The translations under genes were made by a program, and so were the position numbers. This document shows, one piece after another, positions 11,081-48,637 of a DNA stretch of 64,000 nucleotides. The notes under the pieces were generated by a model that made no database searches, was not told the DNA's origin, and saw only the letters and a list, made by a program, of their open reading frames with translations. The stretch is from Ignavibacteriota bacterium. Lineage in GTDB: Bacteria > Bacteroidota > Ignavibacteria > Palsa-1295. Within the stretch, counting starts at the first letter, position 1. Each line of letters starts with the position of its first letter. The stretch is from positions 1 to 64,000 of the forward strand of contig PLYO01000034.1 in NCBI GenBank assembly GCA_003151825.1, given 5' to 3'.

Positions 11081-13602
11081 TGGCTTTTGAAAATAAGCTC
11101 GTTGAAAAAGTTTTCGAAGGCGTGCTTCACGGCACGCCCGTTCGTTTACGTACTGATCTTATTAATCGAGCATCTCTTGATCAGGCCATTTCAAAAATCC
11201 CTTTGTCACTATCGCCAAATCAGATAAGAGCGATACAAATCGCATGGGAAAATGAAATCTCCTACATTCAAGGTCCCCCAGGTACAGGAAAATCTCACAC
11301 CATACGGGCTATAATGTTGTCCGCTCTTTTGCTTGGGAAAAAGGTACTACTGGTCTCACAAAAAAAAGCAGCGATAGATGTCGTCTGCGATGAGATAAAC
11401 AAAATGCTTGGACAACACTCTGTAATCTACATCGGTAACGATGCTGAAAGCCGCAGGAGTCTCAAGGCTTTCTTGCAAGATCGACTACAAGGTGCCCATA
11501 TGAAAGAGACCGGACGGTTACCAAGAATTACGACCACCATTCATACTATTCAAGAAAATTTACAGCGAAACAGAACGAAGCTCGATCAATTGGTGCAGCT
11601 TGAGTCACGCTTCTACGATGAGAATGAATCATTTGTGAAAATTAGGAAGACGTTGCAGGAAAAATATGAACAGACACCAGTGCTTCAAACTATTTCAGAA
11701 GTGTTTAAAGCAAGGGCAGAATCGAATCTCAAACGACTGCGCGACTATGAAGATCAAGAAACTCATACTCGGATAGGGAAGCTCTTCTTTGCTCGATCAC
11801 GCAAGGTATATAAGGATTACTTATCGGCAAAGCACGAACTGGCGAATACCTTCGGCAGCACCTACTTTCAAGACCTGCTGAATGTTGACGCTGCATTTAC
11901 TACAGCACATGCTGTGGGCGAAGAATTAGAAAATCGACAACGCACATCAGACTCTTTATCATTGCGAAAAAATATTGAACAAGATGAAAAACTTCTACAT
12001 GCGGAACTATTAGAATTCCTTAAAATATCTCGCGACCAGAAGCTTAATTATGCTCTTAATACAATTGTGGACGACATCGATCCTGTTAGAGAGTCAGTCG
12101 AATCATTCGCTGCTCTCCTCCATTGGGTGAGTCCGCGTAAGATTGTCGATGGAATGCAAAATATCGATTACCGGCGACTTTCGGACGCGCTCCCATTGTG
12201 GGCTGGCGAAATTAAAGACCTGGGTAATTACCTTCCATTCACAAGTGAGGTATTCGATATGGTTATTGTCGATGAGGCTTCACAAGTGAACATCGCAGAG
12301 ATTATTCCGGCGCTTTATAGAGGTTCACGTTTTTGCGTTGTTGGTGATAAACAGCAGCTTGGACTTAATGCTGCTGGGTTGTTTCGTCTTAATAAGACCT
12401 TTGAAGAACTCTCTTGGAATCAGTCGCTTGGGAAGAGCGTACCTTTTGGGCAAGCATCACAGGCGGGACTTTTGGTTAGCAACTCGTCAATTCTTGATTT
12501 TATCACTGCCGGTACTGGATTCAACGTCCCACAGGTTATGCTCGATGAGCACTACCGTTCGATGCCCCCCTTGGCTCAATTCACCAGCCAGCAATTCTAC
12601 CAAGGCAAACTTCGCGTTATGACCGAAACCCCTGCGAATGTAAAAACGGTGTGCTTCAAAGCGATCAAGGTTGAAGGTCAACGCCATCCTAAGAAAAAAG
12701 TTGTTCCCGCCGAAGTTGACTGTTTGATTGAACAGTTGTCGCAAATCATATACCACGGCGCTTATAAGTTAGACCCATTACTTTCAAGATTCGAGTTCGA
12801 CCCAAATAATGAGCGCGGCGGTCGTCCAACAATCGGGGTTGTGTCATTTCTCACAAACCAACGAAGTTATATTCGCGAAGTTATTGAAGAAAGATTCCAG
12901 GATAGCATTAAACGTTTTGACCTGCGCGTTGGCACTCCCGAAGAATTCCAAGGCAATGAACGTGATATTATCTTCATAACTCTTGGACTTGATGGTAGTA
13001 GTAGCTGGGGAAAGGGACATTATGAGAATCCCAATAGGTTTAATGTAGCTACCAGCCGAGCTCGCAAGTTTACGTACCTCATATACGCAGGGATACCGAC
13101 CACTGCCGACCTTTTAAGAAAGTATGCTAATCATTTTCAGATAAAAATTCACCCCGAAGATTTCATAGAAGTTCGGACAGGGACTGAGACCGTTCTATCG
13201 TCATTTCCGAGGTGGCGATTTCGAGATAACGGACTTCAATCGGAATTTGAGAGAGAGGTCTTCCAATGGCTGCGAAGTTTCGCAGACATTGAGAACCCTG
13301 AATTTGAAATATACAATCAAGTTCCGAGTTGCAATAAGTTCATTGATTTCGTTATTTACAATCGATCTAATGAAAAAAGCGTTGCTATTGAAGTAGATGG
13401 AAAACAACACTTCGGCCCGGACAATCAATTAGATGCCGACGATATTGAGCGAGAAAGGGTTCTAAAGCGTGCTGGCTGGAAAATATTGAGACTCCCATAT
13501 TACGACTGGTATCAGGATGGTTGGCTCTGCAGGTCGGATAATAAGATCTTTGTTACTAAGTGGCGATCCTTTTGTAGTGAACTAACTAGACACTTGGTAT
13601 AA
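11080..13602 (+). CDS. SF1 helicase (COG1112/Dna2-like) fused to a DUF559/Vsr-like nuclease
   Basis: The 840-residue product. Motif Q region and Walker A: LSPNQIRAIQIAW then GPPGTGKSHT (about 67-76). A long, partly helical insertion (150-380) follows. Walker B is MVIVDEASQVN (about 395), motif III is VVGDKQQL, and motifs V/VI are EFQGNERDIIFITLGL and NVATSRARKF. The last ~130 residues hold a Vsr/DUF559-type nuclease: FIDFVIY, then AIEVDGKQH, then RVLKRAGWKILRLPY. An UPF1/Dna2-type helicase with a C-terminal nuclease is a common design among antiphage proteins (compare the COG1112 helicase of Mokosh), but this combination is not one I can name. The function in defence is inference. Confidence 0.85.
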   Translation: MAFENKLVEKVFEGVLHGTPVRLRTDLINRASLDQAISKIPLSLSPNQIRAIQIAWENEISYIQGPPGTGKSHTIRAIMLSALLLGKKVLLVSQKKAAIDVVCDEINKMLGQHSVIYIGNDAESRRSLKAFLQDRLQGAHMKETGRLPRITTTIHTIQENLQRNRTKLDQLVQLESRFYDENESFVKIRKTLQEKYEQTPVLQTISEVFKARAESNLKRLRDYEDQETHTRIGKLFFARSRKVYKDYLSAKHELANTFGSTYFQDLLNVDAAFTTAHAVGEELENRQRTSDSLSLRKNIEQDEKLLHAELLEFLKISRDQKLNYALNTIVDDIDPVRESVESFAALLHWVSPRKIVDGMQNIDYRRLSDALPLWAGEIKDLGNYLPFTSEVFDMVIVDEASQVNIAEIIPALYRGSRFCVVGDKQQLGLNAAGLFRLNKTFEELSWNQSLGKSVPFGQASQAGLLVSNSSILDFITAGTGFNVPQVMLDEHYRSMPPLAQFTSQQFYQGKLRVMTETPANVKTVCFKAIKVEGQRHPKKKVVPAEVDCLIEQLSQIIYHGAYKLDPLLSRFEFDPNNERGGRPTIGVVSFLTNQRSYIREVIEERFQDSIKRFDLRVGTPEEFQGNERDIIFITLGLDGSSSWGKGHYENPNRFNVATSRARKFTYLIYAGIPTTADLLRKYANHFQIKIHPEDFIEVRTGTETVLSSFPRWRFRDNGLQSEFEREVFQWLRSFADIENPEFEIYNQVPSCNKFIDFVIYNRSNEKSVAIEVDGKQHFGPDNQLDADDIERERVLKRAGWKILRLPYYDWYQDGWLCRSDNKIFVTKWRSFCSELTRHLV

Positions 13603-25491: not shown

Positions 25492-26442
25492 ATGATTACA
25501 AAACCATCCCTCGCATCGCCAGCTATGCGCCCCCTCCTTCCAAAAGAGGGAAAATCCAGAAGCCTGACGCGCCGAGCTTTTTTGCATACGAGCATTCTCG
25601 GCGTAAGTGGCATCGCGCTTGCAAGCTGCACACGAGGCATCATGCAGCGCAACGACATCGAGATTACCGAGCGCACTTTCTCTCTCCCCAATCTGCCTCC
25701 GGCCTTCGAGGGAAAGACGATGACGTTCCTCAGCGATGTTCACGCCGGCCCATTCATGGACGTGGACGAGATGAAGCATATCGTCCAGATTGTCAATGAT
25801 TTGAAAAGCGACATTATTGTCATGCCTGGGGATTTCGTGACGTCGGATCCGAACGAAATAGAGCCGTTTGCCGAGGCGATGGCGTCGCTTAAAGCGCCGT
25901 ATGGAGTCTATGCCTGCACTGGGAACCATGATTATTACGCCGGCATAGATCTGGTGAGCCGAGGCGTTGAAGATATTGGCTTTAAGCTCTTGCGAAACGA
26001 GAATACTGCTCTCACCATCGACGGGCAATCGCTTTATTTTATCGGCGTCGATGATAGCGATGCTTCCTCCATTAAATATTATGTCGATGGAAAACCGGCT
26101 CCCCATATCGAAGCGGCCTGGCAAGGCATTCCGCATAATGCCGCAACGATCCTGCTTTGCCACAAGCCCTATATGTTCGAAGATTTTGCAAAAACCAATA
26201 CCGGTTTGATGCTCGCAGGCCATACGCATGGCGGCCAAATCGTGCTCGGAAGGATTGGGCGAACAGTCATGACCTTCAGCACCCTTGCCTCGCAATACGT
26301 CGATGGATTATATTTGCCGGAGCATCTGAAATCGAAGACGCAAATGTATGTCTCGCGCGGCATTGGCGTAGTCGGCGTACCGATTCGCATCAATTGCCCG
26401 CCGGAGATTACGAAGATAACGTTGACGAATTCCCCCTCCTAA
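25492..26442 (+). CDS. Calcineurin-like metallophosphoesterase, Tat-exported lipoprotein
   Basis: The 316-residue product has a twin-Arg signal (TRRAFLHTS, Arg 27-28) and a lipobox ending at Cys46. Dinuclear metal site motifs are in order: SDVHAG, GDFVTSD, GNHDYY, CHKPYMF, GHTHGGQ. Relatives of the YkuE/YaeI type act on envelope substrates such as UDP-2,3-diacylglucosamine or membrane phospho-compounds; the substrate is unknown. Residues 13-22 (RPLLPKEGKS) look like a translated, decayed copy of the CCCCTCCTT-type repeat, and the stop codon lies in the repeat that starts at 26430. Confidence 0.88.
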   Translation: MITKPSLASPAMRPLLPKEGKSRSLTRRAFLHTSILGVSGIALASCTRGIMQRNDIEITERTFSLPNLPPAFEGKTMTFLSDVHAGPFMDVDEMKHIVQIVNDLKSDIIVMPGDFVTSDPNEIEPFAEAMASLKAPYGVYACTGNHDYYAGIDLVSRGVEDIGFKLLRNENTALTIDGQSLYFIGVDDSDASSIKYYVDGKPAPHIEAAWQGIPHNAATILLCHKPYMFEDFAKTNTGLMLAGHTHGGQIVLGRIGRTVMTFSTLASQYVDGLYLPEHLKSKTQMYVSRGIGVVGVPIRINCPPEITKITLTNSPS

Positions 26443-26880
26443 AGAAGGAGGGGGTTAGGGGGTGGTAATTATATACAATGACGGAAATTTTTAATCGAGC
26501 CGAACTTAAAACCCGCCGAAGGGAACTTCGTAAAAGTGCAACCCCAGCGGAACAGACACTTTGGAAATCTCTCCGTGGTTCCCAAATCGAGGACGTGAAG
26601 TTTCGAAGACAAGCGAGCATTGCTACATACGTAGTGGACTTTTATGCTCCAGAGCTTCGATTAGCAATCGAAATCGATGGCTCAATCCATCAGGGGGACA
26701 TTCTAATATTGGATAACAGCCGCCAACGAAGCTTGGAAGAGCTTGGAATTATTTTTCTCAGGTTCTCGAATGAAGAGGTTTTGAATGAGACTTCCGCTGT
26801 GATTAATAAAATTGGGGATAAAGTAAAATCTCTTCGCAAGGAACCACCCCCTAACCCCCTCCTTCTTAAGGAGGGGGAAC
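26430..26880. mobile_element. Candidate element: DUF559 gene flanked by 36-bp inverted repeats
   Basis: The left repeat 26430-26465 and the right repeat 26845-26880 are inverse copies identical at 35 of 36 positions. Each is itself palindromic (CCCCCTCCT...AGGAGGGGG) with a TTAGGGGGTGG side. Between them lies exactly one DUF559-type nuclease domain starting at 26478. The phosphoesterase stop is inside the left copy, and the right copy is translated as a linker. No clear target-site duplication is seen. The layout suggests a small mobile element moved by, or with, the DUF559 nuclease, as RAYT genes are with REP sequences. This is inference. Confidence 0.6.
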
Positions 26881-27356
26881 CGCGAATACGTCACCCACAT
26901 GTCACCATCTACACCGACGGCGCCTGCTCCGGCAATCCGGGACCAGGCGGTTATGGGGTGGTTCTCATCGATTCCTCGGGACGCCGGCGCGAGCTTTCCG
27001 GTGGGTTTCGCAATACCACGAATAATCGCATGGAACTTCTTGGCGTTATCTCCGCGCTGGAAGCCCTCAAGCGACCCTGTGACGTTACGCTCGTTTCCGA
27101 CTCCGAATATGTCATCAATGCGATCACGAAAGGATGGCTCGCATCGTGGCAAAAAAAAGGATGGCGCAAAGCGGATAAAAAACCGGTAATGAATATCGAT
27201 CTCTGGCAGCGATTACTTCCCAAGCTCGAGGAACATAACATCGAATTCCGTTGGACCAAAGGCCACGCCGGTAATCCCGAAAACGAACGCTGCGATGAGC
27301 TGGCCGTCGCGGCCTCGCAAATGCCAAATTTGCCTATAGACAATCGCCGTGTGTAG
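26478..27356 (+). CDS. rnhA: DUF559 nuclease fused to ribonuclease HI through a repeat-encoded linker
   Basis: The 292-residue product. Residues 10-118 are a DUF559/Vsr-like nuclease (KFRRQ 41-45, VVDFY 52-56, LAIEIDG 62-68). Residues about 121-134 ([14 protein letters not shown]) are the in-frame translation of the right 36-bp repeat. Residues 140-287 are a full RNase HI with catalytic D147 (TDGAC), E186 (RMELL), D208 (SDSEY) and D273 (CDELA), H263 included, so RNA-DNA hybrid cleavage should be intact. No good separate start for the RNase H part is visible in frame; its own ATG was probably lost. rnhA is often essential-like for genome stability, so it may now depend on the DUF559 start. Confidence 0.88.
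26845..26880. repeat. Right inverted repeat, translated as protein linker
   Basis: The reverse complement of 26430-26465 with one mismatch. On the plus strand it opens CCACCCCCTAACCCCCTCC and closes GGAGGGGGAA. It is read in frame as [12 protein letters not shown]. There is no stop in this frame, so the two flanking domains are joined. Confidence 0.85.
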
Positions 27357-46777: not shown

Positions 46778-48637
46778 TTAAGTTAGTTCCACCGTCCGCA
46801 CCCGATACATCGCCTCGATGAGTTCCCCGTAGCGCTCCTCGACCGCCTTGCGGCGGATTTTCAGCGTCGGCGTCATCATACCGTTTTCGATGGTGAATGG
46901 TTCTGGCAGTAGCATAAATCTTCTTACACGTTCATAACTTGCGATGCCGGCCTGCAATCGGTCTAATTCCGTACCGATCGTGGCGCGGATGGCTTCGTTC
47001 GTGGCAAACGCCTCGCCCGAAGTATCATTCCCGTTCCCAATTCCTGCTTCGCGTAGCGCGGCGAAATCGGGCACAATGAGCGCAGTGCAAAACGGGCGTT
47101 TGTCCCCGATGAGCATGATTTGCTCGATGAAACGCGATTCGCCCAGAAGAGATTCAATCGGCGCGGGCGCGATATTCTTGCCGCCGGTCGATACAAAAAG
47201 ATGCTTTTTGCGGTCGGTAATTTTGAGATAGCCTTCGGAATCGAGCGCGCCAATGTCACCCGTATGCAGCCAGCCATCGGCGTCGATCATTTCGCGCGTG
47301 GCTTCGGTCTGTTTATAGTAACCCTGCATGATGTTCGGCCCTCGCGCCAAAATTTCGCCATCTTCCGCGATTGTGATTTCAACATTGTCCAACGGCTTCC
47401 CGACGGTTCCCCATTTCAGCTTCCGGTATGGGTTCACCGAAAGTACGGGCGAAGTTTCGGTCATGCCATACCCTTCGATGATCGGCAGCCCGAAGGCCGC
47501 AAACGCGCGGCCCACTTCCGTCGGTAGCGCCGCCGCGCCGGAAACGAAGAAGCGGATACGACCGCCGGTACGCGCGCGTATTTTTTTTAGCACAAGGGCA
47601 TCGGCGATTGGTTTAAGCATCCGCGCAAGAATGGGAACGGATTTTCCTTCGAACGATAATCCATTTTTTGCACCAATGCCGAGCGCCCAATCGAACACGC
47701 GCCGGCGAGCAGGCGGTAACTTTTCGCGCATCCGCATGATGCGTGCATGGACGCGCTCGTAAAATCGCGGCACACCCGTCATGATCGTCGGGCGGATTTC
47801 GAGTAGATTGTCTGCGACCGTATCGACCGATTCCGCAAAGGCCACGGTCATGCCGCGCAGAAAAAAGAAGTGCATCGCGATATGCTCGAAGGCATGGCAA
47901 AGTGGCAGAAAGGAAAGCGCGATATCATGCTCCGTTAAAGGAGGAATCGCCGCCAGCGCACCTTCGATATTCGCCATCACGTTCGCGTGCGAGAGCATCA
48001 CGCCTTTTGAGTTCCCAGTCGTGCCGCTTGTATAAATGATCGTGACAATGTCTCCGCTCGCGGCTTTGCGAGCTTCGGTATTAAAATCTGGGGCCGATCC
48101 AGCCATGCTGGAAATATCTTTAAAATGTAAAAAAACAACCTCTCCCCTGCCCCTCTCCTTGGTAAAGAGAGGGGTTTCTAATTTCGTCTCATCGTTTATC
48201 TCGATGATGGCTTCGAGCGATGGGCAGTTCCCAATAATTTTCAGCGCCTTGCCAAGCTGCAAATCGTTCGAGACGATCAGCAATTTTGCTCCGCAATCGT
48301 TGACAATAAATTCGATTTGCGGCGCGGTGAGCGTCGGGAACATCGGCACCCAAATCGCGCCGAGCGCAAGCGCGGCAAATTCAGAAATAAGCCACTCGGG
48401 TCGGGATTCGGATACAATGGCAATCCGGTCGCCGCGCTGAATGCCGAGCCTTGCAAACCCCGCAAATACTTCCCGGACGCGCGCGTCGAATTCGGCGAAG
48501 GTCATTTCGCGGTACGGCTCGCCATGTGCCGTCTTATAGCGCAGATAAATGCGGTCTTTTCCCGCACCCAATGTACGTTCGAAAAATGCGCCGAGCAGCG
48601 TGCCGGAACTCGGATTTTTTGGAGTATTGAAATTCAC
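46778..48637 (-). CDS. fadD: Long-chain acyl-CoA synthetase (AMP-forming), with repeat-encoded insert
   Basis: The 619-residue product activates fatty acids with ATP and CoA. ANL core motifs: IIYTSGTTGNSKGVMLSH, YGMTETSPVLS, GWLHTGDIG and KITDRKKHLFVSTGGKNIAP. Residues about 153-168 (TPLFTKERGRGEVVF) are encoded by a palindromic CCCCTCTC...GAGAGGGG repeat and lie in the loop before the first core motif. Overlaps rfbD by 4 nt. Of the FAA1/long-chain type by length. Confidence 0.92.
   Translation of the reverse strand: MNFNTPKNPSSGTLLGAFFERTLGAGKDRIYLRYKTAHGEPYREMTFAEFDARVREVFAGFARLGIQRGDRIAIVSESRPEWLISEFAALALGAIWVPMFPTLTAPQIEFIVNDCGAKLLIVSNDLQLGKALKIIGNCPSLEAIIEINDETKLETPLFTKERGRGEVVFLHFKDISSMAGSAPDFNTEARKAASGDIVTIIYTSGTTGNSKGVMLSHANVMANIEGALAAIPPLTEHDIALSFLPLCHAFEHIAMHFFFLRGMTVAFAESVDTVADNLLEIRPTIMTGVPRFYERVHARIMRMREKLPPARRRVFDWALGIGAKNGLSFEGKSVPILARMLKPIADALVLKKIRARTGGRIRFFVSGAAALPTEVGRAFAAFGLPIIEGYGMTETSPVLSVNPYRKLKWGTVGKPLDNVEITIAEDGEILARGPNIMQGYYKQTEATREMIDADGWLHTGDIGALDSEGYLKITDRKKHLFVSTGGKNIAPAPIESLLGESRFIEQIMLIGDKRPFCTALIVPDFAALREAGIGNGNDTSGEAFATNEAIRATIGTELDRLQAGIASYERVRRFMLLPEPFTIENGMMTPTLKIRRKAVEERYGELIEAMYRVRTVELT
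48134..48178. repeat. Palindromic repeat inside the acyl-CoA synthetase gene
   Basis: ACCTCTCCCCTGCCCCTCTCC, a TTGGTAA loop, then AGAGAGGGGT. Reads in frame on the minus strand as PLFTKERGRGEVV. The length is a multiple of three relative to the gene, keeping the frame. Confidence 0.8.

Follow-up and report, generated by a model that had tools for sequence, protein, structure and literature searches.

Can a small nuclease gene spread the repeats that enclose it? The question is raised by a 64,000-nucleotide stretch of Ignavibacteriota DNA (contig PLYO01000034.1 of assembly GCA_003151825.1, positions 1 to 64,000; hereafter the window). Here a DUF559 nuclease gene lies between two near-identical inverted repeats, and the right-hand repeat is translated as a linker that joins the nuclease to ribonuclease HI (RNase HI). 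An earlier reading of the window, made without database searches (the sequence-only reading), compared this arrangement with that of repetitive extragenic palindromes (REP) and their RAYT transposases, and proposed that DUF559 moves the repeat. Across the loci analyzed here, such repeats bound most DUF559 genes examined, match each other as a pair within a locus, vary with the nuclease, are dispersed, and are absent from the orthologous sites of relatives. From this association and architecture we infer that DUF559 mobilises the repeats. We put at about 0.75 the probability that a DUF559 gene with two inverted triplex-type repeats is an autonomous mobile unit, of which the solo repeats are non-autonomous copies.

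The inverted arms flanking the window nuclease are 37 nt long, complementary at 36 of 37 positions and separated by 376 nt. They confirm the near-identical copies around one DUF559 nuclease reported in the sequence-only reading, whose right-hand coordinates were off by one or two. The left repeat (26430-26466, + strand) consists of a pyrimidine arm, a loop, a purine arm, a loop TTA and a third strand, GGGGGTGGTA, with 10 predicted triads and one stem mismatch. The right repeat (26842-26879, - strand, with its arm at 26843-26879), also with 10 predicted triads, is translated on the + strand as a 12-residue linker. The predicted hairpins have energies of -10.9 kcal/mol (left; equally stable in 0 of 200 shuffles) and -11.4 kcal/mol (right; 3 of 200).

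The claim that the repeats also occur elsewhere was borne out. The hairpin core has four matches in the window with at most three mismatches, against none expected from shuffles, and at the same tolerance there are 142 sites in the whole genome, against none for a reversed control pattern. The genomic copies that were inspected are mostly a hairpin followed by a 'GGGGGTGGT' tail, and inner copies of a tandem array have no tail. The tail repeats the purine arm in mirror order, A being matched by either A or T, as expected of an intrastrand triplex of the purine motif. A scanner built on this rule (a hairpin, with a purine arm followed by its mirror-image third strand, at least 8 triads and short loops) picks up each of the genome's four strong DUF559 loci, where motifs have 8 to 11 triads, and the repeat beside ycjD in Escherichia coli (10 triads). 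It found 32 motifs in 400 kb of this genome and none in shuffled sequence. Flavobacterial repeats that share the design but are short, and repeats whose second loop contains a hairpin, escape the scanner, and its counts are too low in those cases. At four loci (L170, L171, L092 and L014), some triplex repeats carry a second hairpin in the loop that separates the purine arm from the third strand. The repeat has no Rfam match, and a regulatory RNA reading was dropped on that ground.

The fused open frame (26478-27356, + strand) encodes 292 amino acids. Pfam identifies DUF559 at residues 10-115 (E = 1.1e-28; the PF04480 match scores 99.8 bits against a curated cut-off of 20.6) and RNase H at residues 141-280 (E = 1.7e-44), and the sole other Pfam match of the frame is a sub-threshold MTES_1575. 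The nuclease domain (26478-26840, +) is Vsr-like, of the PD-(D/E)XK type. It carries the motif E65-x-D67-G-x-x-H71...D79-x-x-R82, and by sequence its closest solved relative is PDB 3hrl (E = 1.9e-14), which is named endonuclease-like. A structure model of the fused protein has block values of the predicted local distance difference test of 90-98 over residues 11-120, except for 79 over residues 71-80, and a poorly ordered linker. A fold search with the whole fused model returned RNase H structures in all of its 50 best rows and is thus uninformative on DUF559. The RNase HI domain (26898-27317, +) also matches NCBIfam NF001236 above its cut-off. Its four acids are held by an 18-residue motif stretch and by ERCDEL, which we take to be the motifs carrying the catalytic residues, in keeping with the complete active site that had been noted before. 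The right repeat reads into the RNase HI frame without a stop, as the sequence-only reading had said, and two of its three forward frames are open. No in-frame ATG, GTG or TTG was read after the nuclease domain and before RNase HI begins, so the window's RNase HI is apparently produced only as part of a nuclease-linker-RNase HI fusion.

Within this genome, all four strong DUF559 genes have repeats on both sides, and every pair has a stem sequence of its own; the count includes one gene with an in-frame TAG and omits a weak fifth match (27.8 bits), which lies in an 844-aa open frame of the window (13240-13494, +). In a set of 61 genomes of the class, 36 of which encode DUF559, 73 of the 93 DUF559 places were examined. 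An inverted-repeat score of at least 40 was found at 31 of 70 testable class loci; the controls were shifted windows (4 of 396) and mismatched flank pairs (11 of 554). A triplex motif lies within 400 bp of 53 of the 73 class loci (on both sides at 33), compared with 5 of 136 far windows. The same distance gave 18 of 55 named loci, mostly from Bacteroidota (1 of 106 control windows), 6 of 9 plasmid and E. coli loci (0 of 18 far windows) and 20 of 25 further loci from a phylum sample that includes some of the same class (0 of 47 far windows). Taking triplex motifs and strong inverted repeats together, 126 of 162 DUF559 loci have a signal within 400 bp; control windows displaced by 1150 bp gave 15 of 281. 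Several flavobacterial loci scored as negative have a shorter hairpin of the same design, which is detected only as an inverted repeat. The E-x-D-G-x-x-H...D-x-x-R nuclease motif is present in 130 of 137 DUF559 loci, and the elements measured between outer repeat ends are 0.41-0.88 kb long (55 elements).

Repeats are also matched to individual nucleases. In genomes with at least three DUF559 loci, the left arm finds its strictly best match in its own right arm in 32 of 42 cases, where about 12 are expected (p = 1e-10), and DUF559 identity covaries with repeat similarity across 77 loci (Mantel rho 0.18, p = 0.001). At the level of whole genomes, DUF559 number correlates with hairpin number in the class set (rho 0.50, 61 genomes) and with repeat number in 296 genomes of the phylum (rho 0.57; 0.56 in the 272 that remain without the first set). 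An excess of at least 20 hairpins was found in 28 of 126 genomes with a strong DUF559 match and in 2 of 170 without. The independent distribution of repeats and DUF559 genes that the sequence-only reading had named as evidence against itself was therefore not found.

Occupied and empty sites could be compared in relatives. RNase HI is present in seven of seven genomes of the same genus, and the DUF559 fusion in two (G000 and G004); no DUF559 was found in the 330 bp upstream of RNase HI in the other five. The sequence-only reading had also named as contrary evidence a DUF559 gene at the same site without repeats; this did not hold either, since relatives without the element have an unoccupied site. 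The ATG that opens RNase HI in G001, G002 and G003 is missing at that position in G000 and G004; G005 and G006 also have no ATG there and start elsewhere. In the fusion of G004, a single in-frame TTG occurs where the nuclease domain ends. The two fused nucleases are 59% identical, with nonsynonymous and synonymous differences per site (pN, pS) of 0.30 and 0.84, and since the synonymous rate (dS) is saturated, this divergence is only compatible with purifying selection. A second series was found in the uvrC linker of one other genus, where the site is empty in G027 and G036, holds repeat sequence without a nuclease in G054 and is occupied by the full element in G045; the reading frame is kept in every case. 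The gap between pstA and pstB in E. coli shows a 92-bp difference around a BoxC copy: of 30 rows sampled down a ranking of 5,383 records, 12 carry the copy, 17 do not and 1 is unrelated.

Several other candidate footprints were rejected. Solo insertions in truA, mnmE and pgi are ambiguous at the base level, with sites in variable loops; the truA insertion adds a net 27 bp for a 34-bp repeat, and the one in pgi brings no net change in length relative to two of six relatives. The CGAAT/CGAAT flank of the window element does not rise above the chance level of the test on 55 elements described below as a target-site duplication. The BoxC sites at ypfG-tkt and zntA-tusA are confounded by REP elements or decay, and four BoxC matches taken for other sites proved to be zntA-tusA again. 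Presence and absence of ycjD gave no clean empty site: the two ycjD-less E. coli strains read (L116 and L118) have a TetR and RND efflux operon beside fabI, in the place that ycjD occupies in others.

Many DUF559 domains lie inside other proteins. An open frame of more than 90 aa continues on both sides of DUF559 at 20 of 137 loci, and on one side only at 6 of 137. Pfam places DUF559 within MetH in L030, at another place in L167 and twice in L154, a locus from a metagenome-assembled genome of Cytophagales, where one methionine synthase has two separate inserts (aa 264-366 and 990-1096). Judged by flanking sequence, 10 loci have an insert in the same MetH linker, with Pfam run on L030 only. Further Pfam-supported hosts are UvrC, where the insert splits the RNase H domain, UvrA, HsdM, methylmalonyl-CoA mutase, a CoA transferase, LeuRS (L259 and L261), HsdR (L263, L264 and L275) and DNA methylases (L046, L110, L257 and L258). 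DUF559 is fused to RecQ, a LeuC-type aconitase, HisA, a TPM protein and a glutamine amidotransferase. Proteins of this genome with solo repeats in their reading frames are TruA, a DHH phosphoesterase, MnmE (four consecutive copies) and Pgi. The names MetH, UvrA, UvrC, LeuC, HisA, TruA and Pgi were assigned by us from Pfam domains. Of the 32 triplex motifs, 25 lie within an open frame of at least 150 codons, which is weak coding evidence because antisense frames count, and only Pfam-backed cases were used.

A number of observations count against mobilisation by DUF559 or limit its support. Neither a triplex nor an inverted-repeat signal was found at 36 of the 162 loci at the thresholds used, and some of the 162 are mutually close relatives. 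The control rate depends on the window, and a shift of 1150 bp gives 4 of 44 for the phylum sample and 3 of 18 for plasmids and E. coli. Only one flank of ycjD in E. coli holds a triplex repeat, the BoxC copy 167 bp past the 3' end of the gene. Many repeats occur with no DUF559 detected in G001 (25 hairpins), G002 (44), G055 (31) and G204 (24). The correlations at genome level, including those with Y1_Tnp (RAYT/IS200-like) genes, were calculated without phylogenetic correction. Because Y1_Tnp number correlates with triplex-hairpin number as strongly as DUF559 number does (rho 0.53 vs 0.50, 61 genomes), genome-level correlation alone is not specific to DUF559, although each correlation persists with the other partialled out. 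Target-site duplications were not found at 55 DUF559 elements (longest common substring 3.42 vs 3.35 expected). The insertion footprints in TruA and Pgi are imprecise. In G054, the uvrC repeats may have been left behind when the nuclease was lost, and the one clean pstA-pstB indel, flanked by an 8-bp direct repeat, fits either insertion or deletion by slippage. Holder et al. (2015; PMC4666352) describe five inverted pairs in E. coli K-12 that each combine loop types TTA and CCG, perhaps not as a defining property; exact TTA/CCG pairing occurs in two of six pairs that we tested, and the window pair is TTA/TTA. Finally, this is an analysis of sequences, in which no transposition event or nuclease activity was observed.

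The frequency of Y1_Tnp genes in the same genomes suggests another mover. The triplex repeats could be spread by a RAYT or IS200 HUH transposase with DUF559 as a passenger between two copies, and the correlation of Y1_Tnp with repeat number falls only to a partial rho of 0.48 given DUF559. The local evidence points elsewhere. Twenty Y1_Tnp loci of related genomes have inverted repeats of their own in 15 cases, an internal positive control that the method detects the known RAYT/REP geometry, yet none of the 20 has a triplex motif within 400 bp, against 18 of 28 DUF559 loci in nine genomes (Fisher test, 2e-6). Most Y1 genes read from the same genus (L237-L250) have long inverted repeats, so two parallel repeat systems share these genomes. 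A random passenger would also not be one family with variant-matched repeats. Two genomes without Y1 argue weakly in the same direction: G016 (12 hairpins, control 5, with 4 DUF559) and G053 (8 hairpins, control 0, with 3 DUF559; 68% complete). We regard this passenger explanation as distinctly improbable. Somewhat less so, but still unlikely, is a homing endonuclease that cuts empty sites and is copied allelically by repair, with repeats that serve as homology or soluble linkers and are spread by recombination. The Vsr-like fold, the 10 loci with the same MetH linker occupied and the position inside conserved genes, as with inteins and intron nucleases, all fit this proposal, as does one HsdR (L275, from G301) with a GIY-YIG nuclease domain and DUF559 in a single inter-domain region, around which no flanking inverted repeat was found. 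Allelic homing does not explain the many unrelated host genes and intergenic sites, or the more than 100 repeats at unrelated sites in G000, and no splicing (Hint) domain was found in Pfam scans of the DUF559 host frames. A homing-like component may nevertheless act at recurrent sites such as the MetH linker.

Two host functions were also considered. Vsr-like nucleases act in repair, and DUF559 could be a repair nuclease of the host, kept near toxic triplex structures because it removes them. Holder et al. (PMC4666352) do tie triplex motifs to genome instability, by a link that is unexplained. An enzyme acting in trans, however, has no reason to be enclosed by matched inverted copies or to occupy in-frame positions in MetH, UvrC or LeuRS, and the distribution of DUF559 is patchy (36 of 61 genomes); we consider such a role highly improbable. 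The stable, GC-rich hairpins near gene ends could be ordinary transcription terminators or regulatory hairpins of the host DUF559 gene. This is scarcely credible for repeats that occur in both orientations, are variant-matched across the gene and lie within coding sequence (TruA, DHH, MnmE and Pgi); a terminator needs no third-strand rule, the missing Rfam match gives no help, and the in-frame uvrC series contradicts it.

If DUF559 is the mover, the following route can be proposed. The nuclease would recognise the folded single strand (hairpin plus third strand) of its own repeat variant when this is exposed, for example at a replication fork, and would nick it. Host repair or replication would then copy or paste the nicked strand elsewhere, without target duplication. 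Insertions whose length is a multiple of three would be tolerated inside genes, because most repeat frames are open and encode a Pro/Gly/Glu-rich peptide. In the window, an insertion would have left RNase HI without its own start codon and so produced the nuclease-linker-RNase HI fusion. A more general claim is that DUF559 nucleases, with no relation to HUH and DDE transposases, form a class of enzymes for mobile repeats that reads a folded triplex, spreads BoxC/PIT-type repeats across bacteria including E. coli, travels as non-splicing in-frame inserts in essential proteins, and makes linkers and fusions. We hold this to be slightly better than an even bet.

Neighbouring features of the window also carry repeat sequence. 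Upstream of the element is a metallophosphatase gene (25492-26442, +; open frame and Pfam), whose last codons and stop (TAA, 26440-26442) fall within the left repeat. A degenerate repeat copy with 3 mismatches (25530-25552, +) is in frame near its N-terminus (RPLLPKEGK), and the gene thus has repeat sequence at both ends. Downstream of the fused frame lies an LD-carboxypeptidase gene. A solo triplex repeat of the CCCCTCTC type (48137-48174, -) resembles the variant found around the DUF559 gene on contig C33, not that of the window element. PADLOC, which searches for anti-phage defence systems, gave one weak match (E = 2.3e-5 over 73 residues).

The proposed system links an uncharacterised nuclease family to a class of repeats known since the 1990s without a mobility gene. 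If correct, it would enlarge the small set of enzyme folds that spread short bacterial repeats, give a function to a family of 'unknown function' that is present in E. coli K-12 as YcjD, and show one way in which mobile DNA places domains in frame within core proteins (MetH, UvrC, UvrA and LeuRS). A dedicated nuclease in E. coli K-12 makes the mobility of BoxC, PIT and TM repeats testable at the bench. In the open-access literature searched, we found no prior paper connecting DUF559 with triplex repeats.

Parallels exist with several known systems. Inteins and homing endonuclease genes are nuclease genes inserted in frame in conserved proteins; DUF559 inserts differ from them in having no splicing domain, in staying within the open frame and in having non-autonomous repeats dispersed genome-wide. 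Rickettsia palindromic elements are palindromic repeats inserted in frame in protein genes, like the window repeats, and are not known to contain a nuclease gene. E. coli YcjD (by record annotation) and PDB 3hrl (by sequence) belong to the DUF559 family and, to our knowledge, have no known function; ycjD differs from the window nuclease in that it has no second flanking triplex repeat. The window repeats fit the intrastrand-triplex rule of BoxC/PIT, and a triplex is predicted. BoxC, PIT and TM repeats share with them the architecture, a length of about 35-37 nt, inverted pairs and second loops TTA and CCG, according to PMC4666352, and the scanner used here also detects the E. coli copies. The E. 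coli K-12 copies are described there as intergenic only, whereas those of the window genome also lie inside genes. The same paper reports no mobility activities such as transposases or integrases around the E. coli repeats, and the words ycjD, DUF559 and endonuclease are absent from the paper.

The closest parallel in geometry is RAYT/REP, and the comparison drawn in the sequence-only reading holds to that extent. As set out by Nunvar (2010; PMC2817692), RAYT/REP has a small nuclease gene between two inverted palindromic repeats with tails, many solo and paired non-autonomous copies, and no target-site duplication, all of which are shared. It differs in its enzyme, an HUH Y1 transposase there and a PD-(D/E)XK DUF559 nuclease with no PF01797 match by Pfam here, and in the GTAG head of REP, of which no counterpart was read beside the window hairpin. 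The tail of the DUF559 repeats is a predicted triplex third strand, and the elements lie inside reading frames of conserved proteins. The system works like RAYT/REP but, because the enzyme family differs, is not a member of it.

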